Assembly: GCA_030539395.1 (NCBI GenBank)
Contig: JAUNSC010000006.1
Span: forward strand, 49,069 to 113,068
Direction of reading: 5' to 3'
From: Eubacteriales bacterium
GTDB taxonomy: Bacteria > Bacillota > Clostridia > Lachnospirales > Lachnospiraceae
DNA length: 64,000 bases
Below, piece by piece: positions 44,525-62,301 of the stretch. The stretch's first letter is position 1; each line of letters opens with the position of its first letter. The notes under the pieces were generated by a model. That model was not told where the DNA came from. It saw only the letters and a list, made by a program, of their open reading frames with translations, and did no database searches. Position numbers and translations under genes: made by a program.

Positions 44525-44551
44525 TCCGGTGTGCAGGACGAAGGAGAAGAG

Positions 44552-44995: not shown

Positions 44996-45013
44996 AAGCA
45001 GGAGGAAAAGATT

Positions 45014-46234
45014 ATGATTAATATTGCAGTTCTGGGGTATGGAACGGTTGGTTCCGGTGTGGTTGAGGTAATTAACACCAATCACAAAAGTATTAATAAG
45101 AAAGCCGGAGATGAGATTAATATCAAATATGTGCTGGATCTCAGAGATTTTCCGGATGACCCGGTACAGGAGAAGATTGTTCATGACTTTAACATTATTT
45201 TGAATGATCCGGAGATTAAAATTATTGCGGAAGTAATGGGTGGGGTAGAACCGGCGTATACCTTTACGAAAAATGCACTTCTTGCAGGAAAGAGTGTCTG
45301 CACTTCTAACAAAGAACTGGTGGCTAAGCATGGCGCTGAACTGCTGCAGATTGCAAGAGATAAAAATGTGAATTATCTTTTTGAAGCAAGCTGCGGAGGC
45401 GGAATTCCGATCATCCGTCCGTTGAATTCTTCTTTGACAGCTGATGAAATTGATGAGATTGCCGGTATACTCAATGGGACAACAAATTATATGCTGACCA
45501 AGATGGCAGAAGAAGGAAGTGAATACAGCGATGTGCTGAAAGAGGCTCAGGAGAAGGGATATGCGGAGCGCAATCCGGAAGCAGATGTGGAGGGGCATGA
45601 TGCCTGCCGCAAAATAGCGATTCTGTCCTCCCTGGCTTTTGGACGCCATGTGGATTTTGAAGATATTTACACAGAGGGAATTACAAAGATTTCCGCAGCA
45701 GATTTTAAATATGCAAAAGTGATGAACCGTGCGATTAAATTGCTTGGCTTCAGTAAGAAAGTGGGGACAAGTTTCTATGCCATGGTGGCACCTATGATGG
45801 TAAGTCCTTCTGATCCGCTGTACAGTGTAAATGATGTATTCAATGCAATTTTTGTGCACGGCAACGTGCTGGGAGATGCCATGTTTTATGGACGCGGCGC
45901 AGGAAAACTTCCTACAGCCAGTGCAGTCGTAGCTGATATTGTGGATGAAGCAAAACATTTGAACAGAAATATTATGTCCTTCTGGAGCAGCAAAAAGCTT
46001 GAACTGGCAGATGTGGGAGAATCACACCGCCGATTCTTTGTGCGCGTCAAAGGAAACATTGAGGAAGAAAAGGCTCATGTAGAAGATGTGTTTGGCGGCG
46101 TAAAATATGTGCAGGTTCCCGGACTTGACGGAGAATTCGGTTTTATAACGGGAATCATAACAGAAGGGGAATATAAAGAAAAAGCAGATAAACTGGGGTC
46201 TGTGATCAGCATGATCCGTATGAGAAATCTGTAA
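45014..46234 (+). CDS. hom: Homoserine dehydrogenase
   Basis: 406 residues. Reduces aspartate semialdehyde to homoserine with NAD(P)H. The Rossmann start AVLGYGTVGSGVVEV, the catalytic-domain GGGIPIIRPL, GILNGTTNYML and NPEADVEGHDACRKIAIL are visible. A C-terminal ACT domain (about 325-400) would allow feedback by threonine. AGGAGG precedes the ATG. It lies between the ACT protein and a phosphoglycerate-mutase-like kinase candidate. Confidence 0.95.
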   Translation: MINIAVLGYGTVGSGVVEVINTNHKSINKKAGDEINIKYVLDLRDFPDDPVQEKIVHDFNIILNDPEIKIIAEVMGGVEPAYTFTKNALLAGKSVCTSNKELVAKHGAELLQIARDKNVNYLFEASCGGGIPIIRPLNSSLTADEIDEIAGILNGTTNYMLTKMAEEGSEYSDVLKEAQEKGYAERNPEADVEGHDACRKIAILSSLAFGRHVDFEDIYTEGITKISAADFKYAKVMNRAIKLLGFSKKVGTSFYAMVAPMMVSPSDPLYSVNDVFNAIFVHGNVLGDAMFYGRGAGKLPTASAVVADIVDEAKHLNRNIMSFWSSKKLELADVGESHRRFFVRVKGNIEEEKAHVEDVFGGVKYVQVPGLDGEFGFITGIITEGEYKEKADKLGSVISMIRMRNL

Positions 46235-46260
46235 AAGCGACTGAAAATGAGGAGATAATT

Positions 46261-47463
46261 ATGAAATATATAGTGGTATTAGGTGATGGAATGGCAGATG
46301 AGCCGATCGCATCTCTGGGAGGAAAGACGCCTCTGGAATATGCTAAGACACCAGTTATGGACAGGTTGTCAAAGCTTTCGGAAATCGGTCTGTTACATAC
46401 CATTCCGAAGGGAATGAAACCCGGAAGTGATACGGCGAATCTTTCTGTGCTTGGTTATGATCCGGCAGTATATTATTCCGGCAGATCACCCCTTGAAGCG
46501 CTCAGTATAGGAGTACCTGTGAAAGATTCAGATGTGGCTTTGCGCTGTAATCTTGTGACATTGTCAGAAGATGAGCCGTATGAGAAAAAAATCATGATCG
46601 ATCACAGTTCCGGAGAAATATCTACCGGGGATGCAGCTGTTCTTCTGGAAGCAGTAAAAACAGGACTTCAAAAAGAAGGTTATCACTTTTATGCAGGCAC
46701 AAGCTACCGCCATTGTCTGATCTGGGAAAATGGCCGTGTAGTGCCGCTTTCCCAGCCCCATGATATACTGACGCAGTGCATTGAAAAATATTTGCCGGAA
46801 GATGAAGTTTTGAGAGAAATGCAAAAGCGCAGTTATGAAATTCTGGCAGATCATCCGATTAATATAGAGCGAAAGAAAAACGGACTGAATCCTGCAAACA
46901 GCTGCTGGTTCTGGGGTGCAGGCACGAAACCGGCCCTCTCCTCATTTGAGGAGAAGAATCACAAAAAGGGTGTGATGATTTCTGCTGTAGATCTTTTGAA
47001 AGGAATTGCAGTAGGGGCGGGAATGAAGAATATTCATGTGGATGACGCCAACGGAGGTTTACATACAAATTATGAGGGAAAAGCCCAGGCTGCTGTAGAT
47101 GCCCTTTTAAAAGATGGTTATGACTTTGCATATATTCATGTGGAGGCTCCGGATGAGATGGGTCATCAGGGAAGCGTGGAAAGGAAAGTACAGTCAATCG
47201 AATACCTTGATGAAAGAGTGATCAGGATTGTTGCAGATCAGATGGATGCTTCGGGTGAAGAGTATCGTTTGCTGGTTCTTCCGGATCACCCCACACCGAT
47301 CCGCGTCCGGACTCATACAGCAGATCCGGTGCCGTATCTGCTGTATGACAGTACAGACGTGAAACAAAGGGACTGGAGATATTGCGAGCGGGATGCGAAG
47401 ATGAGCGGAAATTATATTGCCGAAGGGCATAAAATGATGGATTATTTGTTTCAAAAGCAGTAA
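46261..47463 (+). CDS. Cofactor-independent phosphoglycerate mutase family; proposed homoserine kinase
   Basis: 400 residues in the alkaline-phosphatase-like metalloenzyme superfamily. The N-terminal VVLGDGMADEP binds metal, PGSDTANLSVLGYD has the nucleophile serine, and VEAPDEMGHQG and LPDHPTPI are metal sites. Annotated as apgM-type, but a subgroup is proposed as an unusual homoserine kinase. The position directly after hom supports that role, since no thrB of the usual type is in the window. Choice between glycolysis and threonine synthesis is inferred from context. Confidence 0.8.
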   Translation: MKYIVVLGDGMADEPIASLGGKTPLEYAKTPVMDRLSKLSEIGLLHTIPKGMKPGSDTANLSVLGYDPAVYYSGRSPLEALSIGVPVKDSDVALRCNLVTLSEDEPYEKKIMIDHSSGEISTGDAAVLLEAVKTGLQKEGYHFYAGTSYRHCLIWENGRVVPLSQPHDILTQCIEKYLPEDEVLREMQKRSYEILADHPINIERKKNGLNPANSCWFWGAGTKPALSSFEEKNHKKGVMISAVDLLKGIAVGAGMKNIHVDDANGGLHTNYEGKAQAAVDALLKDGYDFAYIHVEAPDEMGHQGSVERKVQSIEYLDERVIRIVADQMDASGEEYRLLVLPDHPTPIRVRTHTADPVPYLLYDSTDVKQRDWRYCERDAKMSGNYIAEGHKMMDYLFQKQ

Positions 47464-47483
47464 TACGGGAGAGGTTATTTTAG

Positions 47484-49634
47484 ATGGATATTATAAAGAG
47501 ACTGGCATCAGAACTTGGTGTGGCCGTATGGCAGGTAGAAGCTGCGGTTAAATTGATTGATGAGGGAAATACGATCCCGTTTATTGCCAGATACCGTAAA
47601 GAGGTCACAGGTTCTCTGAATGATGAACAGCTTAGAAATCTTTTTGAGAGATTGACTTATCTCAGAAATCTGGAGGAAAAGAAGCAGCAGGTTTTGTCCG
47701 GCATTGAAGAACAGGGAAAACTTACGGAAGAACTGAAAAAGCAGATTCTTGCGGCCCAAACACTGGTAGTAGTGGATGATCTGTACCGTCCATATCGTCC
47801 AAAGCGGCGTACAAGAGCTACTATTGCGAAGGAAAAGGGGCTGGAAGGCCTTGCTGACATTATTTTGCTTCAGCGCACAAATAGAACTCTTGAACAGGAG
47901 GCAGGTGCGTTTATTGATCCGGAAAAAGGGGTATCATCAGCAGAAGAGGCTATTCAGGGAGCAATGGATATCATTGCCGAGAATATTTCTGATGAGGCTG
48001 ACTATCGTATCCGCATTCGTGAGATGACGGAAAAAGAAGGCATGGTGGTTTCTGCAGCAAAAGATGAAAAGACGGAATCTGTCTATGAGATGTATTATCA
48101 GTTCGCAGAGCCGGTATCTAAAATTGCGGGACACCGGATTCTTGCGGTCAACCGCGGTGAAAAAGAGAAGATTCTGACTGTTAAAATTGAAGCACCGGAA
48201 GAAAAAATCCTCCGATATCTGGAGAAAAAAGTAGTCACCAGAGAAAATCCGGCAACAACACCGGTGCTGCGGGCGGCTGTAGCAGACAGTTATCAGAGAC
48301 TGATCGCACCGGCAATTGAGCGTGAAGTGAGAAGCGCATTGACGGAAAAAGCAGAAGATGGCGCAATCCGTGTGTTTGGAAAAAATCTGGAACAGCTTTT
48401 AATGCAGCCGCCTGTCGCAGGACGTGTAGTTCTGGGATGGGATCCGGCATTTCGAACAGGCTGTAAACTTGCGGTGGTAGACGCGACGGGAAAAGTATTG
48501 GATACTACAGTAATTTATCCCACTGCACCTACGAATGAACAGAAGATCCGTGCCGCAAAAGATACACTGAAACGTTTGATAAGCAAATATCAGATTTCTT
48601 TGATTTCCCTGGGAAATGGTACGGCATCCAGAGAATCGGAACAGATTATTGTAGATTTATTAAAAGAGATACCTGTACCGGTGCAGTATGTGATTACAAA
48701 CGAAGCGGGAGCATCTGTATATTCGGCCAGCAAACTGGCTACAGAAGAATTTCCCGGATTTGATGTGGGACAGAGAAGTGCAGCATCCATTGCAAGACGT
48801 GTCCAGGATCCTCTGGCAGAGCTGGTAAAGATTGATCCTAAATCCATCGGTGTAGGGCAATATCAGCATGATATGAATCAGAAAAAGCTGGGTGAGACTC
48901 TGGGAGGCGTGGTAGAAGACTGTGTAAATAAAGTTGGTGTTGATTTAAATACCGCTTCAGCTTCTCTTCTTGAGTATATATCCGGTATCAGTAAGGCGAT
49001 TTCGAAAAATATTGTCTCTTATCGCGAGGAAAATGGCCGTTTCACAGACCGCAGACAGCTTTTAAAAGTGGCAAAGCTTGGACCGAAGGCATATGAGCAG
49101 TGCGCAGGATTTATGAGAATTTCAGGCGGTAAAAATCCGCTGGATGCCACCAGCGTGCACCCGGAAAGCTACGATGCAGCAGAGAAACTTCTGAAAAAGC
49201 TGGGGTTTGTTCCTGAAGATATTGCGGCCGGCAGACTTCAGGGCGTTTCAAAGAAAATAAAGGATTACAAGGCGCTTTCCCGGGAACTTGAAGTAGGAGA
49301 GCCTACTCTTAGAGATATTGTAAAGGAATTGGAAAAGCCCGGACGTGACCCCAGGGATGAGATGCCCAAACCCATCCTCCGTACAGACGTACTTGACATG
49401 AAAGACTTAAAACCTGGTATGATTTTAAAGGGAACAGTCCGGAATGTTATTGATTTCGGCGCGTTTGTGGATATCGGCGTTCATCAGGACGGACTTGTGC
49501 ATATTTCACAGATAACCGACAAAAAGTTTATTAAGCATCCTTTGGAAGCGGTAAGTGTCGGTGACATTGTGGAAGTGAAAGTTATGAGTGTTGATCCGGC
49601 GAAAAAGAGAATCCAGCTGACAATGAAAATATAA
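47484..49634 (+). CDS. tex: RNA-binding transcription accessory protein Tex
   Basis: 716 residues. Tex N-terminal helical domain, YqgF/RNase H-like core (VVLGWDPAFRTGCKLAVVD at about 313), helix-hairpin-helix repeats, and a C-terminal S1 RNA-binding domain (about 645-715, LKPGMILKGTVRNVIDFGAF). It is thought to act in transcription or RNA handling; its exact role is not settled. 20 bp after the preceding gene, so it is likely the end of the long unit that starts at 41384. Confidence 0.95.
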   Translation: MDIIKRLASELGVAVWQVEAAVKLIDEGNTIPFIARYRKEVTGSLNDEQLRNLFERLTYLRNLEEKKQQVLSGIEEQGKLTEELKKQILAAQTLVVVDDLYRPYRPKRRTRATIAKEKGLEGLADIILLQRTNRTLEQEAGAFIDPEKGVSSAEEAIQGAMDIIAENISDEADYRIRIREMTEKEGMVVSAAKDEKTESVYEMYYQFAEPVSKIAGHRILAVNRGEKEKILTVKIEAPEEKILRYLEKKVVTRENPATTPVLRAAVADSYQRLIAPAIEREVRSALTEKAEDGAIRVFGKNLEQLLMQPPVAGRVVLGWDPAFRTGCKLAVVDATGKVLDTTVIYPTAPTNEQKIRAAKDTLKRLISKYQISLISLGNGTASRESEQIIVDLLKEIPVPVQYVITNEAGASVYSASKLATEEFPGFDVGQRSAASIARRVQDPLAELVKIDPKSIGVGQYQHDMNQKKLGETLGGVVEDCVNKVGVDLNTASASLLEYISGISKAISKNIVSYREENGRFTDRRQLLKVAKLGPKAYEQCAGFMRISGGKNPLDATSVHPESYDAAEKLLKKLGFVPEDIAAGRLQGVSKKIKDYKALSRELEVGEPTLRDIVKELEKPGRDPRDEMPKPILRTDVLDMKDLKPGMILKGTVRNVIDFGAFVDIGVHQDGLVHISQITDKKFIKHPLEAVSVGDIVEVKVMSVDPAKKRIQLTMKI

Positions 49635-49688
49635 AGATGCATCTTCACATACTGCTGCTGCGGTATGCAAAGGGGATGCTTTGTAAAG

Positions 49689-49714
49689 ATACTCCTGTCA
49701 CCGGGAGTATTTTT
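49689..49714 (+). terminator. Intrinsic terminator after tex
   Basis: ATACTCCTG (49689-49697) pairs with CGGGAGTAT (49702-49710) with one G-U pair and loop TCAC, then five T. It separates the long operon from the two-component system. Confidence 0.8.
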
Positions 49715-49733
49715 ATTTGAGCCTGCATTTTTC

Positions 49734-49762
49734 AGGCAGATTTCAGCTTCCCGTGTTATAAT
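49734..49762 (+). promoter_or_regulatory. Promoter of the two-component operon
   Basis: An extended -10, TG-T-TATAAT (49754-49762), and, 23 bp before its hexamer, AGGCAG followed by ATTTCAG. That block resembles AGGTAC-ATTTCAG at the same distance in the promoter at 51838, so the regulator may control its own gene. An ordinary -35 is missing. Confidence 0.55.
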
Positions 49763-49802
49763 CATAAAAACTGTAGATCAGGCAGAAGAAGGAGTAAGGT
49801 TT

Positions 49803-50480
49803 ATGCGTGTATTAATCGCAGAGGATGAAGTGGAAATTGCAAAAGCACTGAAAATTTTGCTGGAGAAAAATAAGTTTTCTGTGGATATTGTTCATAGTGG
49901 AAATGATGCATGGGATTATATTCAGCAGATAGAGTATAATGTGATCGTGCTGGATATCATGATGCCTGGACTGGATGGTCTGGAAGTACTTCGGAGAATA
50001 AGAGCGCAAAAAATGGCCGTTCCGGTTCTGCTGCTTACTGCAAAGGCCGAAATTGAAGACAGGGTAACAGGTTTGAATGCCGGCGCAGATGATTATCTGC
50101 CGAAACCATTCGCATCCAGCGAGCTGATTGCCAGAGTAAAGGCATTGTCCAGACGCAGTATGAATTATTCCGGCAATGTACTGACAGTTGGAAATGTCAG
50201 TCTGGACTGTAATTGTTATGAATTATCGGCTGGAAATCGGACAGTCCGGCTTAATAACAAAGAATACCAGGTAATGGAACTGTTTATGAATCATCCAAGA
50301 CATGTATTTTCAACAGAGCATCTGATGGAAAAGATATGGGGAGCAAATAGTGATGCGGGTATGGATGTAGTCTGGACTTATATCGGTTTCCTGAGAAAAA
50401 AATTGAGGGAACTTGATGCAGATGTGGAAATACGGACAGTGAGAGGAGCCGGGTATTCGTTGGAGGAAAATGTATGTTAA
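49803..50480 (+). CDS. OmpR/PhoB-family response regulator
   Basis: 225 residues. Receiver domain with acidic pair E7/D8, phospho-acceptor D51 (VLDIMMPGLDG), threonine at LLTAK and lysine K101 in PKPF; then a winged-helix Trans_reg_C domain (about 128-222, VRLNNKEYQVMELFMNHP). ATG 49803 is 8 nt after AAGGAG; the frame from 49665 crosses the terminator and promoter. Its stop overlaps the kinase start by 7 bp. Likely the activator of the ABC operons downstream. Confidence 0.95.
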   Translation: MRVLIAEDEVEIAKALKILLEKNKFSVDIVHSGNDAWDYIQQIEYNVIVLDIMMPGLDGLEVLRRIRAQKMAVPVLLLTAKAEIEDRVTGLNAGADDYLPKPFASSELIARVKALSRRSMNYSGNVLTVGNVSLDCNCYELSAGNRTVRLNNKEYQVMELFMNHPRHVFSTEHLMEKIWGANSDAGMDVVWTYIGFLRKKLRELDADVEIRTVRGAGYSLEENVC

Positions 50481-51703
50481 GGAAAATGCAGTGGCGTTTT
50501 ATCTGGGCGGCAATGACTGCTTTTTTTACCGTAATGATGGTTTTGGCTGTTATTATCAATATTGGAAATTTTCATGTAACAACAAGGCGTCAGGATCAGA
50601 TCATAGAAGGGATTTTCCGGTATGAGCAAAGCGAAGAAAAGGCAGTGCCGGATGAACCGCAGTTCCCGGATTTTGAGTACCCGGGAATGCAGCAGCCGGA
50701 ATTTGAATATACCACGCGATTTTTTATTGTCCGGTGTGATCTGAACGGAAATGTAAAAGATGTCTCAAAAGATTTTATTGCATCCATTACGGAGGAAAAG
50801 GCCGGAGAATATGCGGAAACACTCCTTGGAGAAGGCAGAATATCCGGATATTACAATCATTACAGATATCATGCTTATGAAACGGATACAGAAAAAATCG
50901 TGATATTTCTGAATTCGGATGCCGAATATCAGTTCATGAGGACTTTGCTGATTATTTCCGGAATGGTAGCAGCAAGCAGTCTTATGATTGTATTCTTTCT
51001 GATTTTTCTATTATCAAGAAAAGCAATTTCTCCCTACGCCAGGAATATTGAAAGACAAAAACGATTTATTACAGATGCCGGACATGAAATAAAGACACCG
51101 CTTACCTCTATTGCCACCAGCGCTGATGTTTTGGCGATGATCCATGGGGAGGATGAGTGGACAGAAAATATCCGGAAGCAGACGGGGCGGCTTACAAAAC
51201 TGGTGGGAGACCTGATTACACTGTCGAGACTGGATGAGGAAATGCCCTTTCCGGAAAAAGAGGAATTTTCTCTCAGTGATGCGGCATGGGAGAGCGCGCA
51301 GCCTTTTGCTGCACTTGCAGATGTTCAGGGAAAACAGTATATCCAGAATATTGCGGAAGGATTAAAACTGTATGGTGACCGGCCATCTGTACAGCAGATG
51401 ATCTCCATTCTTCTGGATAATGCCGTGAAATATTCAGATGAAAAAGGTGAAATCCGATTTGATGTTTATGAGAAGCATGGGAAACGATATATCGAAGTGT
51501 TTAATACATGCCAAATAGAGGATGTATCAGATATCAGTCATTTATTTGACCGTTTTTACCGTCCTGATTCTTCCAGATCAAGAAATACAGGAGGAACAGG
51601 GATCGGGCTTTCTATTGCGCAGGCAGTTGCAGAGGCCCATGGAGGAAGGATTTATGCAGAGAGCGCTGATGGAAGATGGATCCGGTTTAAGGCAATGCTG
51701 TAA
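50474..51703 (+). CDS. Sensor histidine kinase
   Basis: 409 residues. Membrane segments at about 10-32 and 155-180 flank an outside sensor region of about 120 residues rich in acidic and aromatic residues, with no recognised domain. The H-box FITDAGHEIKTPLTS holds H204; the N-box ILLDNAVKYSDEKG and the G-box GGTGIGLSIAQAVAEAHGG complete the kinase. It partners the response regulator and lies 224 bp before the first ABC operon. The short sensor gives no clue to its signal. Confidence 0.93.
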   Translation: MLRKMQWRFIWAAMTAFFTVMMVLAVIINIGNFHVTTRRQDQIIEGIFRYEQSEEKAVPDEPQFPDFEYPGMQQPEFEYTTRFFIVRCDLNGNVKDVSKDFIASITEEKAGEYAETLLGEGRISGYYNHYRYHAYETDTEKIVIFLNSDAEYQFMRTLLIISGMVAASSLMIVFFLIFLLSRKAISPYARNIERQKRFITDAGHEIKTPLTSIATSADVLAMIHGEDEWTENIRKQTGRLTKLVGDLITLSRLDEEMPFPEKEEFSLSDAAWESAQPFAALADVQGKQYIQNIAEGLKLYGDRPSVQQMISILLDNAVKYSDEKGEIRFDVYEKHGKRYIEVFNTCQIEDVSDISHLFDRFYRPDSSRSRNTGGTGIGLSIAQAVAEAHGGRIYAESADGRWIRFKAML

Positions 51704-51717
51704 ATTATAAAGAAGTA

Positions 51718-51751
51718 ACACCCTGGATTAGATTTTATCCGGGGTGTTTTT
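51718..51751 (+). terminator. Intrinsic terminator after the histidine kinase
   Basis: An 11-bp stem ACACCCTGGAT / ATCCGGGGTGT with one T-G pair, loop TAGATTTT, then five T. Confidence 0.9.
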
Positions 51752-51837
51752 GTGCAGCAGGGAATTCTTTGAATTTCCATTGCATAAAAAGTTCTCCATC
51801 GGCCATCAACATCTGCATATGGCGAATTCGCAAAACG

Positions 51838-51881
51838 TTCACATTATTTTTTAGGTACATTTCAGGATATGATCATACAAT
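51838..51881 (+). promoter_or_regulatory. Candidate regulated promoter of the first ABC operon
   Basis: TTCACA (51838-51843), 9 bp, AGGTAC (51853-51858) at the -35 position, 17 bp, TACAAT (51876-51881). There is no consensus -35, which suggests an activator. The same order and spacing is seen at 56467-56510. The start codon is at 51928. Confidence 0.6.
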
Positions 51882-51927
51882 ATACAGGCACATTCATCGA
51901 AAATGAATCACTGATTGGAGGAACTGT

Positions 51928-52986
51928 ATGATTGAGGTAAAAAATCTGACGAAAAAATATGGCTCAAATACAGCCGTAAGCGATTTGTCTTTTACGGTGG
52001 AAAAGGGACAGATTTATGGTTTTTTGGGTCCGAATGGGGCTGGAAAATCTACAACAATGAATATTATGACAGGATATATTGCTCCCACATCCGGACAGGT
52101 ATTGATTAATGGTCATGATATTGTAGAGGATGGACAGGCGGCGAGGAAATGTATCGGGTATCTGCCGGAGATTCCACCGGTCTATCCGGAAATGACAGTG
52201 GAAGAGTATTTAACATTTGCGGCAGGACTAAAGAAAATTCAGGAGAAAGAGATGGACCGGATGATTGCAGAAGCCATGGATATGACCGGAATCCTGGAAG
52301 TGAAGAAACGTCTTATCCGCAATCTTTCAAAGGGCTTCCGTCAAAGGGTGGGACTTGCACAGGCGATTTTGGGCTATCCGGACATTATTATTCTTGACGA
52401 ACCTATGGTGGGGCTTGATCCCAAGCAGATTATTGAAATCCGTGAGCTGATCAAAGAATTAAGCAAACGGCATACGGTGATTTTGAGTTCCCACATTCTT
52501 TCAGAAGTCAGTGCCATCTGCGATCATATTATGATTATTGCCCATGGAAAGCTGGTGGCCAGCGATACGCCGGAGAATCTGACTGGCCTGATGAAAGGAT
52601 CATCTTCTTTGGAATTGACGCTAGAAGGCCATAAGGAAGAAATCCGCCTTGCCATGAGAGAAATAAGCCGGATCAGTGAATATATGATAAAAGAGTCTGT
52701 AGATGAGAATGCAGTGGATATAGAGCTCAGAACAAAGGATGGGGAAGATATCCGCAGAGAGATTTTCTTTTTGTGTGCCCAAAGACGTATTCCGATTCTT
52801 CGCATGCAGCGCACCCATGTGTCTTTGGAAGATATTTTCCTGGAATTGACAGAAGAGGATGAGGCAGAAAAATCGGATCAGGAAGATAAGAAAAAACATT
52901 TGAATTTATTCCGAAAGAAAGAAAAAAATGCAGCAGTCCTGGCAGATAGGGTGAAGGAGGGCAAAAATAATGACAGCAGTTTATAA
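51928..52986 (+). CDS. ABC transporter ATP-binding protein (GldA-like)
   Basis: 352 residues. Walker A GFLGPNGAGKSTTMN, signature LSKGFRQRVGLAQA and Walker B IIILDEPMVGLDP are complete. A lysine-rich C-terminal tail (about 305-352, KKKHLNLFRKKEKN) is longer than normal. It overlaps the permease start by 17 bp and pairs with the Gld-type permease, forming a class seen in gliding-type and unknown-substrate exporters. GGAGG precedes the ATG. Confidence 0.9.
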   Translation: MIEVKNLTKKYGSNTAVSDLSFTVEKGQIYGFLGPNGAGKSTTMNIMTGYIAPTSGQVLINGHDIVEDGQAARKCIGYLPEIPPVYPEMTVEEYLTFAAGLKKIQEKEMDRMIAEAMDMTGILEVKKRLIRNLSKGFRQRVGLAQAILGYPDIIILDEPMVGLDPKQIIEIRELIKELSKRHTVILSSHILSEVSAICDHIMIIAHGKLVASDTPENLTGLMKGSSSLELTLEGHKEEIRLAMREISRISEYMIKESVDENAVDIELRTKDGEDIRREIFFLCAQRRIPILRMQRTHVSLEDIFLELTEEDEAEKSDQEDKKKHLNLFRKKEKNAAVLADRVKEGKNNDSSL

Positions 52987-55435
52987 AAAAGAAGTAAAAG
53001 GTTTTCTCACCTCCATGACAGGGTATGTATTTATTGCATTTTTACTGGCACTTACAGGCATTTACTTTACCGCATATCATCTGCAGGCCATGTATCCTAA
53101 ATTTGCATATACATTGCAGGCAGTGTTATTTATATTTTTGATTTTGGTTCCTGTTCTAACCATGCGTATTCTGGCAGAAGAACGCAGACAGAAAACGGAC
53201 CAGCTTTTGCTCACTTCTCCGGTATCTGTGACTGGGATTGTGGCAGGAAAGTTTCTGGCGCTGGTCAGTGTGTTTGCCATACCGGTATTGATTCTGGCTG
53301 TGTATCCGCTGATCTTGTCACAGTTTGGAAGCATTGCTTATCTGGAAAGTTACAGCGCGCTGTTTGGATTTTTTCTGCTTGGAGTATCTTATTTGGCAAT
53401 TGGTCTGTTTCTTTCATCTGTGACAGAGAGTCAGGTCATTGCGGCGGTACTTACTTTTTTTACTTTATTTGTCAGCTACATGATGGAAGGAATTTCCTCT
53501 CTTTTTCCGGATACGGCCTCCGGTTCCTTCTTTACGATGGCCGCTTTGGCAGCTGCATTGGCATTTGTAATACATCATATGCTTGGGAAAACGGTGATCA
53601 CCGCCGCAGCTGCCGCTGTTATGGAGGGCATTCTGGCAGCAGTTTATATTATAAAGCCGGCAGTTTATGAGGGACTGATTCAGAATATACTGGAAATCTT
53701 TAATGTAACGGCCCATTTCGAAGAATTTGCAGGAGGCATGTTTGATATTGCAGGAGTTATTTATTATTTGTCTGTCACTGCATTATTTCTGTTCCTGACA
53801 GTGGAATCCATCCAGAAAAGACGATGGGGAGCGGGAGTTGGCCGGTTAAAGAACGGTTCTTATAGTATGGCAATGACAGCTATTGTTATAGCGGCATCGG
53901 TCGCTGTGAATCTGATAGCATCAGAATTGCCGTCCGGTTATATGCAGATCGATGTGACAGATCAGAAATTGTCGGTTCTGACGGATCAGACAAAAGAAAT
54001 GGCAGCAAAGCTTACGGAAGATGTGACTCTTTATTATATTGTACAGGACAGCAACAGGGACACAAATGTATCACGTCTGCTTGAGCGTTACAATGATTTG
54101 TCTTCTCATATTAAAGTAGAAGAGAAGGATCCGGTCAGATATCCGAATTTTACTTCTCAGTATACATCAGAGGGACTGACTGAAAACAGTGTTATTGTTA
54201 CCTGCGGTGAACTGAGCAGAGTTGTGGATTATAATGATATGTATGAGTATGAAATGGATTATACGTATTATTCGTACACAACTTCCGGTTTTGATGCAGA
54301 AGGACAGATTACCAGTGCCATAGCAGCGGTAAGTTCTGATAATCTTCCCAAAATATATACTTTGACGGGACATGGCGAACAGACACTGGATACAAATATG
54401 ACATCAGCAATTGAAAAAGAAAATATTACCACGGAAGAGTTAAATCTGATCAGTGCAGAGCGGGTGCCTGAGGATGCGGATGGCCTGTTAATTCTTTCTC
54501 CGGCTTCTGACTTGACCCAGGCCGAGAGTAATAAAATCAGGGCTTATCTGATGACGGGAGGCAGCGCTGTTATTATTCTGGACTATACCAATGTGGAAAT
54601 GCCCAATCTGGAGTCCATTCTGGAGTATTATGGAATGAACACAGCAGAGGGTGTTGTAATGGAAGGTGATCCGCAGAATTATGTACAGATCCCGTACTAT
54701 CTTGTGCCGGTCATAAATAATACAGAGGTTTCTGCGGATATGGCAGATGGAAATGGCTATGTAATTATGGCAGGAGCCCGGGGACTGACCGTTTCTGACG
54801 ATATCAGAGAGGAAACAGCAGTGTCGGAAGTATTGTCTACATCCTCCAGTGCTTACTCAAAAACGGATGTGGAGAATATGACTGCCTATGAAAAAGAATC
54901 AGGTGATATTGATGGCCCATTTGCTCTTGGTATGCTTGCATCGGAAGAGATAGAATTGACGGAAGAAGTGAAACAGGAGGCAGAGGCGCTTCTGGAAGAA
55001 AATGATGTTTCAGCCCGGGGACTTGCGCAGACATTGGAACTGGCAGAGGAAGAAACGGAAGCAGAATCTGAGATACAGGAGAAAGAAACGGAGACAGAAC
55101 CTGAGACAGCAGAGGAGCTGGCAGCGGATGAGACGGAAAATGAAAGTACAGACACAGTTACAACAAAGCTGGCGGTTTATACATCGTCTGCAATTGTGGA
55201 TTCTTCCATGAGCCAGATGGTATCCGGCGGTAATCAGAAGCTGTTTACGAATACCTTAAGCTGGATGTGTGGACAGGAAACAAGTGTTTCTGTTCCGGTT
55301 AAGAGCATGTCAACCGAGTACCTTACGCTCACAGCTGCCAGCAGTAACTTCTGGAGTGTTATTGTGGTTGGAATTATTCCGGGAGCATTTCTCCTGTATG
55401 GATTTTGTATCTGGCTGAGGCGGAGGAAACAGTAG
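52970..55435 (+). CDS. ABC-2 permease fused to a GldG-like extracytoplasmic domain
   Basis: 821 residues. Six or so membrane helices in the first 290 residues are an ABC-2 permease (GldF-like, RILAEERRQKTDQLLLTSP). A linker helix (about 305-322) leads to an outside domain (about 330-600) of the GldG type with IYTLTGHGEQTL and LILSPASDLTQAE. Residues about 670-720 are a Glu/Thr-rich low-complexity stretch, and one last membrane helix (about 793-815) closes the protein. In Bacteroidetes the two parts are separate genes. Confidence 0.88.
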   Translation: MTAVYKKEVKGFLTSMTGYVFIAFLLALTGIYFTAYHLQAMYPKFAYTLQAVLFIFLILVPVLTMRILAEERRQKTDQLLLTSPVSVTGIVAGKFLALVSVFAIPVLILAVYPLILSQFGSIAYLESYSALFGFFLLGVSYLAIGLFLSSVTESQVIAAVLTFFTLFVSYMMEGISSLFPDTASGSFFTMAALAAALAFVIHHMLGKTVITAAAAAVMEGILAAVYIIKPAVYEGLIQNILEIFNVTAHFEEFAGGMFDIAGVIYYLSVTALFLFLTVESIQKRRWGAGVGRLKNGSYSMAMTAIVIAASVAVNLIASELPSGYMQIDVTDQKLSVLTDQTKEMAAKLTEDVTLYYIVQDSNRDTNVSRLLERYNDLSSHIKVEEKDPVRYPNFTSQYTSEGLTENSVIVTCGELSRVVDYNDMYEYEMDYTYYSYTTSGFDAEGQITSAIAAVSSDNLPKIYTLTGHGEQTLDTNMTSAIEKENITTEELNLISAERVPEDADGLLILSPASDLTQAESNKIRAYLMTGGSAVIILDYTNVEMPNLESILEYYGMNTAEGVVMEGDPQNYVQIPYYLVPVINNTEVSADMADGNGYVIMAGARGLTVSDDIREETAVSEVLSTSSSAYSKTDVENMTAYEKESGDIDGPFALGMLASEEIELTEEVKQEAEALLEENDVSARGLAQTLELAEEETEAESEIQEKETETEPETAEELAADETENESTDTVTTKLAVYTSSAIVDSSMSQMVSGGNQKLFTNTLSWMCGQETSVSVPVKSMSTEYLTLTAASSNFWSVIVVGIIPGAFLLYGFCIWLRRRKQ

Positions 55436-55454
55436 ACCTGGAGGTGATATTAAA

Positions 55455-56447
55455 ATGGCGAACAAATTTGCTGCTTTGGGTGCAGGCACAGTCACAATAT
55501 GCCTGTTGTTCGGAGCCTGGTATATGATAAAAACAAACAATGAAAAAGCGCAGCTTCGTGCATCAGAAGAAAGTGCAGGGGATACGATTGTTGATATCAG
55601 TCAGACGGATGTCTCTTCACTCACATTTAATATCGGAGAGGATGCAGTGACTTTTGTTACAGAAGAGGATGGCTGGTATATGGAGAGTGATGAAGACTTT
55701 CCGGTAAACAGTACGGAAATCAGTTCACTGTTATCTTATTTTGGACCGCTTAAAGCAGTGCGGACTCTGGAAGATGTGAATGAAATCTCAGAATTTGGTC
55801 TTGATGCTCCTGCAAACGTCTTTTTGCTGAAAAATTCTGAAGGAAATGAAACTACGATTACAATCGGCGATAACAACGAAGGAACCGGTGATGATTATGT
55901 TATGAAAGATGATGAGACAGATGTTATATACACCATATCATCTTCTTTAAGAAATGCTGTCGGTGATGATATTTATGATTATGCAGTGAGCGAAGAGATA
56001 CCATCCTTTTCTTCAGATAATATTGTGGGAGTTATTGTAAAGCGTGATGGAGATACTTACGAACTGCAAAAAGGAAATGAAGAGTGGACGGTTCTGGGCA
56101 ATGATACAGAACTGGACCAGGATGATATGGAAATGGCAGTTTCCAATCTGGGATATTTAAGTTACACAGGTTATGCAGATTATCATTGTACAGATGAAAA
56201 GACTTATGGATTTGACTCTGGAAAAGAGATTACCATCATCTATGAGGTGATTGTTGCAAACTCCGCTGCAGACGGAGAAGATGGAACTGAGGATTTATCC
56301 AGTGTGGAACAACATACTCTGACGTTCAGGATTGGGGATACAGATCCGGAAGGAAATTATTATGTACAGCAGGAAGATTCAGAAGAAGTGCATACATTGT
56401 CTGACTCTGTGCTGGACAATTTCCTGAACCTTAAGCTCGGGGAATAA
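55455..56447 (+). CDS. DUF4340 domain protein
   Basis: 330 residues. One N-terminal membrane anchor (about 5-25), then an acidic outside domain with VTFVTEEDGWYMES, and the family motif FGLDAPANVFLLKN. DUF4340 proteins accompany GldG-type ABC transporters and are of unknown function. It starts 19 bp after the permease and is the last gene of the first ABC operon. The following region has a new promoter of the same type as the one that starts this operon. Confidence 0.85.
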   Translation: MANKFAALGAGTVTICLLFGAWYMIKTNNEKAQLRASEESAGDTIVDISQTDVSSLTFNIGEDAVTFVTEEDGWYMESDEDFPVNSTEISSLLSYFGPLKAVRTLEDVNEISEFGLDAPANVFLLKNSEGNETTITIGDNNEGTGDDYVMKDDETDVIYTISSSLRNAVGDDIYDYAVSEEIPSFSSDNIVGVIVKRDGDTYELQKGNEEWTVLGNDTELDQDDMEMAVSNLGYLSYTGYADYHCTDEKTYGFDSGKEITIIYEVIVANSAADGEDGTEDLSSVEQHTLTFRIGDTDPEGNYYVQQEDSEEVHTLSDSVLDNFLNLKLGE

Positions 56448-56466
56448 GTATATAATTCGAAAAATC

Positions 56467-56510
56467 TTCACAATTTTTTTCAGGTACGTTTTAAGTGTGT
56501 CTTCTATACT
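56467..56510 (+). promoter_or_regulatory. Candidate regulated promoter of the NEW3 operon
   Basis: TTCACA (56467-56472), 9 bp, AGGTAC (56482-56487) at the -35 position, 17 bp, TATACT (56505-56510). The first 25 bases match the block at 51838 at 21 positions, and all spacings are identical. Predicted start near 56517 gives a leader of about 115 nt. Confidence 0.6.
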
Positions 56511-56530
56511 TTCTATCACAATATAAGTTA

Positions 56531-56588
56531 CAGGAAGTTCATTTGCCTGCAAGGCTGGACTTCTTAACCTGGCGGGCAGCCGGGCTGC
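56531..56588 (+). other. Structured leader before the NEW3 gene
   Basis: AGGAAGT pairs with ACTTCTT (one G-U), GCCTGC with GCGGGC (one G-U), and GCAGC (56576-56580) with GCTGC (56584-56588) around a CGG loop. Some pairings exclude others. It lacks a T-run, so it is not a simple terminator. Function unknown. Confidence 0.35.
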
Positions 56589-56631
56589 GAGTAATAAAAA
56601 ATGTGGGAACAGGAAAGGAGTTCACGAAAAC

Positions 56632-57849
56632 ATGGAAAAAGTAAAAGCACAAAATCTGGACGGATGGATGGTACTTAGAAGAGCAGGGCTGATAACGGCG
56701 TTGTCGGCTTCCGTGCTTTTAGCTGGCAAAACAAGAGTATTTGCGTCAGAAACAGCATTTGAGATGAGTACGGATTATCCGGGAATTACGGCAAAGGCAG
56801 GAGAAAGCGTAAGTTTTTCTCTGGACTTTTCAGGAGCCACAGGAGAAAGCTGTGATGCGGCATTGAGTGTCACAGAGATACCGGATGGCTGGGAAGGCAC
56901 TTTTAAAGGAAGCACAAATAATCAGATCAGCAGAGTACATATTAATACGGCAAATGATATGGTGGCAGAAGATATGGCGACTTTCAGCCTGAATATTCCG
57001 GAAGAAACACAAGACGGCGCTTACACGGTGGAACTTCAGGCAAAAGCAGACAACGGAGATTATGATACACTGGAATTGGAGATCAATGTAAGTGAGCTGG
57101 AAACCGGAAGCAGCAGTTTTACTTCAGAATATCCTTCCCAGCAAGCAGCGGCAGGCACCAGCTTCAGTTTCGATATGACACTGATCAATAACCGGGCATC
57201 TGCTCAGTCTTACAGCTTGTCAGCGGAAGCACCTGCAGGATGGCAGGTATCTTTTGTACCGTCAGGGGAAAGCAGTCAGGTGGCCAGCATTAATGTGGAA
57301 GCTGGAGCGAGTCAGGGGATGACAGCGACCATCGTTCCTCCGGAAGGCCTGAAAGAAGGAGAGTATACGATTCCATGTACAGCTATTTCGACGGATGAAA
57401 CACTTTCCACAGAACTGTCGATCACAATCACCGGATCTTATGAAGTTGCATTGTCTACGCCCGGCGGTATGCTCAGTTTTGATGCATATGCAAATGATGA
57501 AAAGGCAGTAACATTAAGCGTAACAAATAATGGAAACGTAGATCTTAAGAATCTGAATCTGACATCTTCCGCACCATCCGGATGGGAAGTAAGCTTTGAT
57601 GAATCTACGATTGAACTGCTGGAGGCAGGAAGTACAAAAGAAATTACGGCACGTGTAACACCGGGCGAAGATGCAATGACCGGGGATTATGTGACAACCA
57701 TTACAGTGAGTACAGACGAAACGACAGACAGCGCAGAATTCAGGGTATCGGTCAAGACAAGAACGACCTGGGGGATTATGGCAGTTGGTATTATTATACT
57801 TTTGCTGGCTTTTCTTGCCGGTATTTTTAAGAAGTACGGAAGAAGGTAG
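56632..57849 (+). CDS. NEW3-domain surface protein with C-terminal membrane anchor
   Basis: 405 residues. A signal peptide (about 15-38, ending VFASE), then three Ig-like NEW3 repeats (about 45-150, 157-265, 270-370), each with an AGES/AAGTS-type start and a GWEGTF/GWQVSF/GWEVSF core, and one C-terminal membrane helix (about 380-400) with a basic end. This matches COG1470-type proteins, which sit next to ABC-2 transporters. It probably works outside as a partner or cargo anchor for the ABC pair that follows. AAAGGAG is 11 nt before the ATG. Confidence 0.82.
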   Translation: MEKVKAQNLDGWMVLRRAGLITALSASVLLAGKTRVFASETAFEMSTDYPGITAKAGESVSFSLDFSGATGESCDAALSVTEIPDGWEGTFKGSTNNQISRVHINTANDMVAEDMATFSLNIPEETQDGAYTVELQAKADNGDYDTLELEINVSELETGSSSFTSEYPSQQAAAGTSFSFDMTLINNRASAQSYSLSAEAPAGWQVSFVPSGESSQVASINVEAGASQGMTATIVPPEGLKEGEYTIPCTAISTDETLSTELSITITGSYEVALSTPGGMLSFDAYANDEKAVTLSVTNNGNVDLKNLNLTSSAPSGWEVSFDESTIELLEAGSTKEITARVTPGEDAMTGDYVTTITVSTDETTDSAEFRVSVKTRTTWGIMAVGIIILLLAFLAGIFKKYGRR

Positions 57850-57852
57850 TTT

Positions 57853-58854
57853 ATGGGACAGAATAATGACATAGTAATACGAACGAAGAATCTGTCAAAG
57901 ATTTATGGGACAAAGGCGGCTGTAAATCATCTGGATCTGGAAATCAGAAAAGGTGAGGTGTTTGGCCTGCTAGGACCGAATGGTGCAGGTAAGACAACCA
58001 CAATAATGATGCTGCTCGGACTGACAGAACCAACAGTCGGCCAGGCATCTATTTATGGCATAGACTGTACCAGAAATGCTATTGATATCAAACGTGTGGC
58101 AGGTTATCTGCCGGATAATCCGGGATTTTATCCTGATATGACAGGCAGACAGAACCTGCGCTTTACTGCCTGTATGAACGGGCTGCAGGGAGAAGAGACA
58201 GAAAAGCGGATCACACAGCTTCTGGAAAGAACAGGTATGACAGAGGCAGCAGACAAAAAGACGGGTACCTATTCCAAAGGTATGAAACAGCGGCTTGGCA
58301 TTGCAGATGTGCTGATCAAGGATCCGCAGATTATCATTATGGATGAGCCGACACTGGGACTCGATCCGGAGGGGATGAGAGAACTGCTGGAGTTAATAAG
58401 ACAGCTTTCCAAAGAAGACGGAAGGACTCTGATGATATCGTCTCACCAGCTCTATCAGGTCCAGCAGATTTGTGACAGGGTAGGGATATTTGTAGAAGGC
58501 CAGTTGGTTGCCTGCGGAAAAATTGAAGAACTGGGAAATCAGGTTCAGCAGGAAAACCACTATTCCATGGAACTTCAGGTAGAACCATGTGATGACCGGC
58601 TGCTTGGTGCGATTGCAGGACAGGACGGCGTACAGTCTATTGAAAAAGAAGGGAATATGTTTATCGTTCAGTCAACCAAAGATATGAGAAAATCGTTATC
58701 TGCTTTTCTGGGGAAGGGAAATTATACGATTCTTCATATGCACCAGCGAGGCGGTGATCTGGACGAAATCTATCGATTATATTTTGAAAAGGCAGGGCAG
58801 AAGGATGAGAGCAACAGTAAGAAGCAAAACCACAGAGAATACCGTCATCTTTGA
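57853..58854 (+). CDS. ABC transporter ATP-binding protein (NosF/COG1131-like)
   Basis: 333 residues. Walker A GLLGPNGAGKTTTIMM, signature YSKGMKQRLGIADV, Walker B IIIMDEPTLGLDPEG. Residues after about 225 form the usual C-terminal accessory domain. It begins 3 bp after the NEW3 gene and its last 50 bp overlap the start of the permease in another frame. Probably forms the transporter with the next protein and the NEW3 protein. Confidence 0.9.
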   Translation: MGQNNDIVIRTKNLSKIYGTKAAVNHLDLEIRKGEVFGLLGPNGAGKTTTIMMLLGLTEPTVGQASIYGIDCTRNAIDIKRVAGYLPDNPGFYPDMTGRQNLRFTACMNGLQGEETEKRITQLLERTGMTEAADKKTGTYSKGMKQRLGIADVLIKDPQIIIMDEPTLGLDPEGMRELLELIRQLSKEDGRTLMISSHQLYQVQQICDRVGIFVEGQLVACGKIEELGNQVQQENHYSMELQVEPCDDRLLGAIAGQDGVQSIEKEGNMFIVQSTKDMRKSLSAFLGKGNYTILHMHQRGGDLDEIYRLYFEKAGQKDESNSKKQNHREYRHL

Positions 58855-59803
58855 GGTAAGGACCAGAACCGGACTTAGTGCATTGTACCGCAAGGAACTG
58901 GCGGACCACCTTCGCAGCAGGCGTTTCCTGATTATTCTGATTTTGATTTATGCCACCAGTTTTGCCGGTTTATACGGCGCTTTGTCCGGAATCAGTTCTG
59001 CGGCGGAAAGTGACAGCACATTTCTTTTTCTGAAATTATATACAACCAGCGGGAATTCAATTCCGTCTTTTATGAGTTTCATTGCGCTTCTGGGACCTTT
59101 TGTTGGGCTGACGCTGGGATTTGATGCAATAAACAGTGAACGCAGCAGCGGAACATTAAACCGTCTGGTGGCGCAGCCGATCTACAGAGATTCTGTTATT
59201 ATTGGGAAATTTCTGGCCGGAGCAGCTATCATAGCAATTATGGTATTTTCCATGGGAATTGCCATAGGCAGTATCGGGGTTTTAGTTACCGGACTGGTGC
59301 CTGGAGCGGAGGAGGTATGCCGCATTATCGTATTTTTAATATTCACCTGCATTTACATTGCTTTCTGGCTGGGATTATCCATACTTTTTTCAGTAATATG
59401 CAAGCATTCAGCGACGTCCGCCATGGCAGTAATCGCCCTGTGGATTTTCTTCACAATCTTTATGAGCCTGCTGGCCAATATCATAGCGAATGTAATTTAT
59501 CCTGTAGATACACAATGGAATGCTATGATGAATTCTTATGACAATTATTCATTGGAATTGAATCTGAACCGGATTTCACCGTATTATCTGTACAGCGAAG
59601 CAGTATCAACCATCATGAATCCGTCTGTAAGATCCGTAAATGTGGTGACGATGCAGCAATTGGAAGGCGCGATCACAGGATATTTGTCTTTTGGACAAAG
59701 CCTGCTTCTTGTCTGGCCGCATCTGGTAGGACTGATGGCTTTAATGCTGATAGCGTTTGCGGGATCTTATGTTGGATTTATGAGGCAGGAAATACGATCA
59801 TAA
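58805..59803 (+). CDS. ABC-2 type permease (NosY-like)
   Basis: 332 residues, six membrane helices (about 37-330). An N-terminal soluble stretch carries LYRKELADHLRSRRF, and DAINSERSSGTLNRLVAQPIYRD is the conserved loop of ABC-2 permeases. ATG 58805 overlaps the ATPase gene by 50 bp and its ribosome site is poor, so translation is probably coupled. The frame is open further upstream to 58754, but a shorter product fits relatives better. The substrate is unknown. Confidence 0.85.
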   Translation: MRATVRSKTTENTVIFEVRTRTGLSALYRKELADHLRSRRFLIILILIYATSFAGLYGALSGISSAAESDSTFLFLKLYTTSGNSIPSFMSFIALLGPFVGLTLGFDAINSERSSGTLNRLVAQPIYRDSVIIGKFLAGAAIIAIMVFSMGIAIGSIGVLVTGLVPGAEEVCRIIVFLIFTCIYIAFWLGLSILFSVICKHSATSAMAVIALWIFFTIFMSLLANIIANVIYPVDTQWNAMMNSYDNYSLELNLNRISPYYLYSEAVSTIMNPSVRSVNVVTMQQLEGAITGYLSFGQSLLLVWPHLVGLMALMLIAFAGSYVGFMRQEIRS

Positions 59804-59812
59804 TGGAAAGGT

Positions 59813-60412
59813 ATGCAAAGGATTATGACAGATACAGAATATTATAATCTTATTCAACCCTACAGGGATGCAATGAAATTGTTGCTGACCCGGTTGGAAG
59901 TCTTGAATCATACAATATATGAGACGGCAGAGAGTAAGTCTATCCATATGGTCCAGAACCGCATCAAAAAGAAAACAAGCATAGAGAACAAATTAATAAC
60001 CCGGGGTGAAAAACCTACAAAAGATAATGCAAAAAATATGCTGATGGACATAGCCGGGATCCGGGTGGTATGTTATTTTATTGAAGACATAGACCAGTTG
60101 ATTCATATGCTGAAAAATCAGTCCGATCTGATACTGATCCGTGAAAGTGATTATATTTCCAACCCGAAACCAAACGGGTACAGGAGCCATCATTTAATTG
60201 TAGGAGTAAACGTATTCTGCCTGGATGCAAGTGAGTATTATCCGGTTGAGATTCAGTTCCGGACAATATCTATGGACTTTTGGGCAGCGCTGGAGCACAG
60301 GATATCTTATAAGAAACAGTATGACAACAAAGAGCAGCGAGTGGCTGAGCTTCTGCGGTACTCCAACATTCTGAGAGATATGGAGAAGGAATTTGAAAAA
60401 TATAAGGACTGA
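59813..60412 (+). CDS. Small alarmone synthetase (RelA/SpoT synthetase domain)
   Basis: About 199 residues. A single ppGpp synthetase domain of the YjbM/YwaC type: DIAGIRVVCYFIEDI, KPNGYRSHHLIV and VEIQFRTISMDFWAALEHRI are visible. No hydrolase, TGS or ACT domain is present, so it only makes (p)ppGpp. It starts 9 bp after the ABC permease, suggesting co-expression with the ABC operon. ATG 59825 is an in-frame alternative; neither start has ideal spacing to its GGAAAGG. Confidence 0.93.
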   Translation: MQRIMTDTEYYNLIQPYRDAMKLLLTRLEVLNHTIYETAESKSIHMVQNRIKKKTSIENKLITRGEKPTKDNAKNMLMDIAGIRVVCYFIEDIDQLIHMLKNQSDLILIRESDYISNPKPNGYRSHHLIVGVNVFCLDASEYYPVEIQFRTISMDFWAALEHRISYKKQYDNKEQRVAELLRYSNILRDMEKEFEKYKD

Positions 60413-60417
60413 CAGCT

Positions 60418-60464
60418 TTGGGCCAGAATCCTGTAAGATTGCGGGATTATGGCTCAATTGTTTT
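60418..60464 (+). terminator. Intrinsic terminator after the alarmone synthetase
   Basis: TTGGGCCAGAATCC (60418-60431) pairs with the segment 60443-60457, which includes GGGATT-A-TGGCTCAA, with one mismatch and two G-U pairs, then TTGTTTTA. It ends the unit that begins at 56467. Confidence 0.7.
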
Positions 60465-60485
60465 ATCGGAGATCAGAATTAAACC

Positions 60486-60514
60486 TTGACATGATGCAAA
60501 ATGTGCAATAAGTT
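60486..60514 (+). promoter_or_regulatory. Candidate promoter of the aminopeptidase operon
   Basis: Consensus TTGACA (60486-60491), 17 bp, TAAGTT (60509-60514). The -10 is weak. Confidence 0.45.
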
Positions 60515-60609
60515 ATAAATAGCGCGGAGATTCCTCCGGAATAAGAGCGCAGAAAGCGGGAAACGAAATGTTTTTGTCCCGGTATTATCATGAACAGAGG
60601 AAAAGAAAT

Positions 60610-61920: not shown

Positions 61921-61935
61921 AAGGAGGAATATCAA

Positions 61936-62301
61936 ATGAAATTTAAAATGATTCATGAAAATTATAATGTAGCAAACCTGGAAGTATCGGAGGCTTTTTA
62001 CCAAAAGGCTCTGGGGCTTACAGAAAAAAGACGCATAAATGGGGAAGGATTTGTGATTGCATATCTGGCAAATGATGAATCCGATTTTGAACTGGAACTT
62101 ACCTGTCTGGAGGAACATCCGCAGCCGTATAATCTGGGAGAATGCGAGTTTCATCTTGCGTTCCGGGCAGATGATTATGAGGCAGCCTATAAATTGCATA
62201 AAGAAATGGGCTGCATCTGCTACGAAAATCCGGCTATGGGTATTTACTTTATTGCAGATCCCGATGGTTATTGGATTGAAATTGTTCCTGTAAGAAAATA
62301 A
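61936..62301 (+). CDS. VOC-family glyoxalase I-like protein
   Basis: 121 residues with one vicinal-oxygen-chelate domain. MIHENYNVANLEVSEAFYQKALG, LGECEFHLAFRADDYEAA and PDGYWIEIVP are the usual strands. The order suggests lactoylglutathione lyase (GloA-like), although many family members have other substrates; Firmicutes mostly lack glutathione. AAGGAGGAAT precedes the ATG. It starts 15 bp after the peptidase. Confidence 0.8.
   Translation: MKFKMIHENYNVANLEVSEAFYQKALGLTEKRRINGEGFVIAYLANDESDFELELTCLEEHPQPYNLGECEFHLAFRADDYEAAYKLHKEMGCICYENPAMGIYFIADPDGYWIEIVPVRK

Follow-up and report, generated by a model that had tools for sequence, protein, structure and literature searches.

In a Lachnospiraceae genome (Eubacteriales bacterium, GCA_030539395.1), three neighbouring promoters share a short direct repeat, TTYARG-N5-TTYARG, just before the -10 hexamer. 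They lie within a 64,000-nucleotide stretch (contig JAUNSC010000006.1, positions 49,069 to 113,068, forward strand; hereafter the window, in which coordinates are counted) and belong to a two-component system (response regulator, RR, and histidine kinase, HK), to a Gld-like ATP-binding cassette (ABC) operon (ABC1) and to an operon that joins a NEW3-domain surface protein to a second ABC transporter (the NEW3 operon). The repeats are called sites C, A and B, respectively. Judged from the sequence, the local two-component regulator very probably controls itself and both ABC operons through these sites. What can be read directly is where the sites lie, that they share one spacing and that relatives keep them next to the orthologous regulator.

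An initial annotation of this DNA had pointed to TTCACA, 9 bp, AGGTAC, 17 bp and a -10 hexamer at 51838 and 56467 (TACAAT at 51876, TATACT at 56505), with 21 of the first 25 bases identical, and to AGGCAG followed by ATTTCAG at 49734, 23 bp ahead of TATAAT (49757). These letters and spacings were confirmed. The likeness of A and B begins 11 bp earlier than noted (TTCGCA at 51827, TTCGAA at 56456). Instead of TTCACA plus AGGTAC, the sequence is best divided into two direct repeats of 11 bp. The operator is an OmpR-type direct repeat of two TTYARG half-sites 11 bp apart, which start at 51850 and 51861 in A, 56479 and 56490 in B, and 49731 and 49742 in C; in each case the second half-site begins 15 bp before the first base of the -10. 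AGGTAC is the junction formed by the end of one half-site and part of the spacer. As a conserved element it was rejected, since the half-sites stay and the spacer part varies elsewhere (GGTTC, AGTAC). TTCACA-AGGTAC as a single operator was likewise set aside as the leading interpretation and kept as a rival. At A and B, TTCACA begins 12 bp before the operator and belongs to a box that ends 6 bp upstream of it; site C has no TTCACA box.

Direct repeats with an 11-bp period are the form of DNA bound by regulators of the OmpR/PhoB family. The RR has the receiver and winged-helix Trans_reg_C domains of that family (Pfam), and repeats about 11 bp apart lie at or beside the -35 position in all 13 sites described here (three in the window, ten in relatives). 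That position reads AGGTAC, AGGCAG, AAGTAC, AGGTTC or AGGTTT, unlike TTGACA.

The first relatives seemed contrary to a regulon because none had this two-component system beside ABC1 (21 other ABC1 genomes, in stretches of 3 to 20 kb); a regulator-based search changed the picture. In 397 genomes of the family, 13 orthologues were found besides the window's RR (56-71% identity), and 12 of their neighbourhoods were compared (L280-L291, 184,377 bp; that of G023 was not taken in). The box definition had been fixed from the window sites before these loci were retrieved. Sites had to match TTYARG-N5-TTYARG at 11 of 12 positions or better and to have a -10, with spacings of 14-16 bp allowed. Ten sites were found in nine of the 12 loci, all with the 15-bp spacing. 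Control loci (413,964 bp) gave three, each matching 11/12, at 14 or 16 bp and none at 15. This corresponds to 1.3 sites expected in 184,377 bp (Poisson P 1.5e-6, the related genomes not being independent). Two loci with a two-component system at ABC1 (L068, L069) were excluded from the control; each has one site, at ABC1. Control upstream regions, here and below, were picked by a simple open reading frame (ORF) rule, and the genomes are partly incomplete. In all 13 sites the -10 ends 23-121 bp before the ORF start.

The ten operators follow the regulator gene into different surroundings: two precede ABC1 operons (G172, G284), one a NEW3-ABC operon (G004), six a VTC-DUF4956-CotH operon and one the RR gene itself (G228). 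Gene order is RR-HK-ABC1-GldF-GldG-DUF4340 in G172, RR-ABC1-GldF-GldG-DUF4340 in G284 and RR-NEW3-ABC2 in G004, the last two with no kinase in between. The promoter between regulator (or kinase) and operon reads TTCACA-N6-TTTAAGTACATTTTAAG, 9 bp, TACAAT in G172; TTCACA-N6-TTTAGGTACATTTCAGG, 9 bp, TACAAT in G284, where the 17-mer TTTAGGTACATTTCAGG is identical to site A; and TTCATA-N6-TTCAGGTTCATTTCAAA, 9 bp, TACAAT in G004. Operons that start with a VTC-like gene stand behind the repeat in G312, G392, G379, G228, G337 and G130, and in G228 the repeat also precedes the regulator gene (VTC, DUF4956 and CotH were assigned by Pfam in L282, VTC and CotH in L284, the others by likeness of their first residues). 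A recognition helix VVWT(Y/H)IGF or a close variant is present in the 11 orthologous loci read (L280 left out). The annotation had proposed to look in related genomes, and the outcome favours its regulon, as the blocks proved to be kept where the orthologous regulator adjoins the operons (G172, G284, G004).

Within its own genome (3.37 Mb), exact copies of TTCACANNNTTTTTNAGGTAC stand at 51838 and 56467 and nowhere else; allowing up to three mismatches gives 32 sites, and the reversed control gives 31. The whole-genome search used this narrower pattern; TTCACA-N9-AGGTAC was searched in the window and occurs twice. When the 185-bp region upstream of NEW3 was shuffled 2000 times, the best match to the first 25-mer never exceeded 18/25 (observed, 21). 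The 17-mer TTYAGGYANRTTTYARS, written from A, B and C and hence partly circular, is found exactly only at those three places; with up to two mismatches it shows no excess (115 sites against 160 for the reversed control), and none of its seven one-mismatch sites has a -10. Site C matches A or B at 14 of 17 positions, a score that 23 of 5000 shuffles attained at some position of that region. On its own, site C would be modest evidence; the relatives decide.

More distant RR homologues point the same way, with scores of at least 10 in 7 of 20 promoters, whereas other upstream regions reach this in 5 of 172 cases (P 2.6e-5). The set holds 20 of 31 kinase/RR loci, 11 having been dropped for low identity or short match; a contig scan with the kinase as query gave two distant loci only. 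A small alarmone synthetase gene precedes the RR-HK homologues in L091, L097, L117, L232, L233 and L235, and such a gene also ends the NEW3 operon, which makes another link of the regulator family to the operon behind site B.

Genes and promoter elements of the window locus

The features read in the window are as follows.

ends at 49634: tex (name as in the initial annotation)
49689..49710, + strand: terminator hairpin ATACTCC..GGAGTAT then TTTTT, downstream of tex (read from the letters; the scan did not list the hairpin)
49731..49747, + strand: site C, operator TTCAGG-N5-TTCAGC ahead of the two-component genes (11/12 to TTYARG-N5-TTYARG; no TTCACA at -12)
49757..49762, + strand: -10 TATAAT, two-component promoter
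49803..50480, + strand: RR, OmpR-family response regulator (Pfam Response_reg and Trans_reg_C)
50474..51703, + strand: HK, sensor histidine kinase (Pfam HisKA and HATPase_c)
51718..51747, + strand: terminator ACACCC..GGGTGT then TTTTT, downstream of the kinase gene (read from the letters; the scan did not list the hairpin)
51827..51843, + strand: upstream box A1, TTCGCA-N5-TTCACA (11/12 to TTCACA-N5-TTCACA)
51850..51866, + strand: site A, operator TTTAGG-N5-TTCAGG (12/12; identical 17-mer in L287)
51876..51881, + strand: -10 TACAAT, ABC1 operon
51928..52986, + strand: ABC1, GldA-like ABC ATPase (Pfam ABC_tran; GldA model 315.6 bits, cut-off 402.6)
52970..55435, + strand: GldF-like permease fused to a GldG-like ABC_transp_aux protein (Pfam; both Gld models below cut-off)
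55455..56447, + strand: DUF4340 protein (Pfam)
56456..56472, + strand: upstream box B1, TTCGAA-N5-TTCACA (10/12 to TTCACA-N5-TTCACA)
56479..56495, + strand: site B, operator TTCAGG-N5-TTTAAG (12/12)
56505..56510, + strand: -10 TATACT, NEW3 operon
56632..57849, + strand: NEW3-domain surface protein (Pfam NPCBM_assoc)
57853..58854, + strand: ABC2, second ABC ATPase (Pfam)
58802..59803, + strand: ABC-2 permease (Pfam)
59813..60412, + strand: small alarmone synthetase-like gene (Pfam RelA_SpoT)

Gene order and Pfam agree with the earlier statement that an OmpR-type regulator lies between the tex terminator and both ABC operons. Operon limits (ABC1, 51928-56447; NEW3, 56632-60412) were set from gene gaps, and the alarmone synthetase-like gene is probably the last of the NEW3 operon, given the 9-bp gap before it. 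The two ATPases are 36% identical. None of the Gld models reaches its curated cut-off, GldF scoring 108.6 bits (288.5 needed) and GldG 35.3 (389.85). The best NCBIfam match of the RR is RppA (237.5 bits, below the cut-off of 250), and NCBIfam and PDB searches gave no named orthologue for it. An Rfam search of 44000-62000 returned no match. A palindromic element (about TTTTTATGCA..GGAAATTC-NNN-GAATTTCC.ATTGCATAAAAA) was seen at 51741-51793, downstream of the kinase terminator; six further copies in the genome (L002-L007) each lie, by eye, just behind terminator-like hairpins.

The TTCACA box upstream of the operator

The TTCACA part is probably a separate, older box for another regulator. Counting the window, 14 of 22 genomes have a TTCACA-N5-TTCACA repeat (at least 10/12) ahead of ABC1; with three genomes that were left out at first and scored later (L023, L024, L026; neither box in any), the figure is 14 of 25. 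Control upstream regions carry it in 4 of 153 cases (P 5e-12 against 14/22, only a guide among related genomes); two of these four lie at NEW3 genes (window, G090), and a third at a gene close to the latter, on the opposite strand. Sister genomes G002 and G006, of the same genus, have a different, divergent two-component system near ABC1 (regulator 32-34% identical), and their ABC1 promoters carry an 11/12 TTYARG repeat 15 bp before a -10. None of the 19 other ABC1 promoters reaches 11 (best 10, G013), nor do the three added genomes; where no two-component system was seen near a Gld-like operon, the operator score was reached at 0 of 22 promoters.

Perfect copies of TTCACA-N5-TTCACA number 36 in 16 genomes (nine for the reversed control), and 11 of the 30 such loci read have, in our own reading, a CIRCE-like sequence directly downstream. 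In an Hsp20 search the CIRCE arm TAGCACTC was found in 17 of 27 upstream regions, with the repeat 6-8 bp before CIRCE in 11 of the 17, which suggests a second regulator acting there besides HrcA. At hsp20 loci L242-L246, L248, L249, L254, L256, L258 and L260 the form is TTCACA-N5-TTCACA or GACACA-N5-TTCACA, 6-8 bp before CIRCE.

Upstream regions of htrA-like genes carry GTCACA-N5-AACACA and similar sequences (28 loci read, L198 and L200 having been dropped from 30; their scores stay under the curated cut-off of the family model applied). Sites of the type xTCACA-N5-xACACA, chosen by eye, stand before 14 of the 28, and a matrix built from these 14 scores ABC1 upstream regions above controls (Mann-Whitney P 3e-7), 12 of 22 exceeding the controls' 95% value. 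The three best-scoring controls are an htrA gene beside ABC1 (G006), ftsH then htrA in the same place (G002) and a NEW3 gene (G022). Directly behind the ABC1 operon lie htrA in G006 (L068, 13430-14683) and ftsH then htrA in G002 (L069, 4676-7772), and the G006 htrA and G002 ftsH genes have the same 17-bp sequence, ATGACAGAGTGAACACA, upstream. From these associations we infer a heat or secretion-stress box. In VTC-DUF4956-CotH operons the operator adjoins a TTCACA-like half-site in three of six. By eye, the promoters of RR homologues in G002 and G005 (L096, L098) show a TTCACA repeat and a TTCAA repeat about 17-18 bp apart.

Proposed mechanism, alternatives and significance

We infer RR binding, activation, dependence on phosphorylation, the signal and the identity of the second regulator from sequence. 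The RR (49803), once phosphorylated by the kinase (50474), would bind TTYARG-N5-TTYARG head-to-tail as a dimer at C, A and B. Since the second half-site begins 15 bp before the -10 and the repeat covers the place of the missing -35, the bound dimer would most likely recruit RNA polymerase. At C this would yield positive autoregulation, and at A and B joint activation of the Gld-like ABC and the NEW3-ABC-alarmone synthetase operons. The second box at A and B, TTCRNA-N5-TTCACA, would come from an older htrA/ftsH/hsp20 circuit and probably add heat or secretion-stress input. It is conceivable, as a more tentative step, that each of these promoters works as a two-input gate. A two-component system able to move would have placed its operator behind the older box, at a distance of exactly 12 bp. 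The Gld-like and NEW3 ABC operons, which ancestrally would have belonged to a stress regulon with htrA, ftsH and hsp20, would then answer to a local surface signal in addition, and in other genera the system would have taken over VTC-DUF4956-CotH operons.

Several observations weigh against this scheme. Three of the 12 orthologous loci (L281, L288, L291) have no operator site, and G009, which has an RR orthologue, shows the operator neither in that neighbourhood nor at its unlinked ABC1 promoter. NEW3 operons of G002, G006, G090, G022 and G395, where the regulator is not next door, lack the operator (best 8/12; 143 bp were available upstream in G006). Six RR loci added later have no site (one is the same gene as L085, and three stand behind an alarmone synthetase gene). 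The TTCACA repeat is missing at 8 of 22 ABC1 promoters (11 of 25), and the genome's own Hsp20 gene has neither TTCACA box nor CIRCE. The autoregulation site occurs in two of 13 loci, the window and G228; the other 11 have no site scoring at least 10 within 170 bp before the RR gene. The single regulon first proposed is supported by the shared operator, kept beside the orthologous regulator; its autoregulation is supported in the window and G228 only.

The constant distance of 12 bp between TTCACA and the operator also counts against the scheme, as a single protein, bound as two dimers in tandem, could recognise the four half-sites (TTCRNA, TTCACA, TTYARG, TTYARG), with no second regulator. The steps are constant at 11, 12 and 11 bp at A, B, L280, L283, L286, L287, L289 and L290, and at 8 of 13 sites at least four of six TTCACA positions match at exactly -12. 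We consider this explanation possible but rather unlikely, in view of TTCACA repeats at ABC1 operons without such a regulator nearby or a TTYARG operator, and at htrA and CIRCE-hsp20 genes; moreover, both RR promoters with the operator (C, L285) lack TTCACA. An operator adjoining the -10 could block polymerase as well as recruit it, and the regulator might then repress A, B and C. This appears improbable, given that the -35 position differs from TTGACA at all 13 sites and that like placement accompanies activation in the CiaR promoters treated in part of PMC3091779. It is slightly less probable still that a CssR-like or other stress regulator alone drives A and B via TTCACA, the TTYARG likeness being secondary. 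The TTCACA repeats are indeed the older and wider feature, and a canonical CssR sequence of Bacillus, TTTTCACA, is given in a passage of PMC6749698; the TTYARG operator, however, tracks the RR gene into differing operons with exact spacing, also where TTCACA is absent (L282, L284, L285). Finally, the blocks might mean nothing for regulation and be leftovers of promoter duplication or AT-rich sequence alike by chance; the moderate similarity of C (reached in 23/5000 shuffles) and the lack of genome-wide enrichment of motifs with two or three mismatches might be cited for this. It is very improbable, because ATPases only 36% identical make recent duplication of whole operons unlikely and neither origin would predict conserved sites in nine other loci.

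If the local RR acts through TTYARG-N5-TTYARG, a two-component system for which no named orthologue was found gains an operator that can be tested (TTYARGTWCATTTCAGG-N9-TAnnnT), together with a list of targets. A single regulator would then connect the Gld-like ABC operon with DUF4340, the NEW3-ABC operon and the VTC-DUF4956-CotH operon, three sets of surface genes about which little is understood. Judging by its upstream box, the Gld-like ABC operon may take part in the response to envelope or secretion stress. This is a concrete clue to the function of a transporter for which we found, in the open-access literature, no account of a role outside gliding bacteria. Nor did that literature yield anything on TTCACA in Lachnospiraceae or on a TTTCAGG direct repeat with a response regulator.

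Comparison with known systems

The ABC1 operon recalls GldA-GldFG of gliding Bacteroidota in matching the GldA, GldF and, weakly, GldG models; it differs in that these matches fall below the curated cut-offs, the permease and the GldG-like part are fused, and a DUF4340 protein is added. The upstream box may resemble the target of CssRS of Bacillus subtilis (TTTTCACA) as a TTCACA-type repeat ahead of htrA genes; here, however, the repeats recur at 11 bp, and the Gld-like operon and hsp20 have them upstream too. No CssRS orthologue was identified, no dedicated search for one having been made.

The closest likeness of the operator is to that of CiaRH in streptococci (TTTAAG-N5-TTTAAG), the same direct repeat of 6-bp half-sites with a 5-bp spacer just before the -10. 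The distance from repeat to -10 was set to ten in the cia-dependent small RNA (csRNA) prediction described in part of PMC3091779, and is nine here; an exact TTTAAG-N5-TTTAAG stands at one RR homologue (L099). Feedback on ciaRH and a link to htrA are reported in a passage of PMC8317062. The half-sites in the window are mostly TTYAGG and do not fit the CiaRH operator NTTAAG-N5-TTTAAG, and the recognition helix is VVWTYIGFLRKKL, as against VVEVYVSKVRKKL for CiaR in the relevant part of PMC3091779. The targets differ too, being Gld-like ABC, NEW3-ABC and VTC-CotH operons, and htrA here carries the other (TTCACA) box. In Bacillus anthracis, the CiaRH-like BAS0540-BAS0541 regulator binds TTTAAG-N5-TTTAAG before its own gene, according to a portion of PMC4938410; the window system shares the repeat ahead of the regulator gene and differs in half-site and target operons. 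The likeness to CiaR, as far as sequences can tell, is one of architecture, with a different half-site and recognition helix, and the window system appears to be a further autoregulated regulon of the OmpR/CiaR-like kind, with promoters whose pairing of boxes is unusual.

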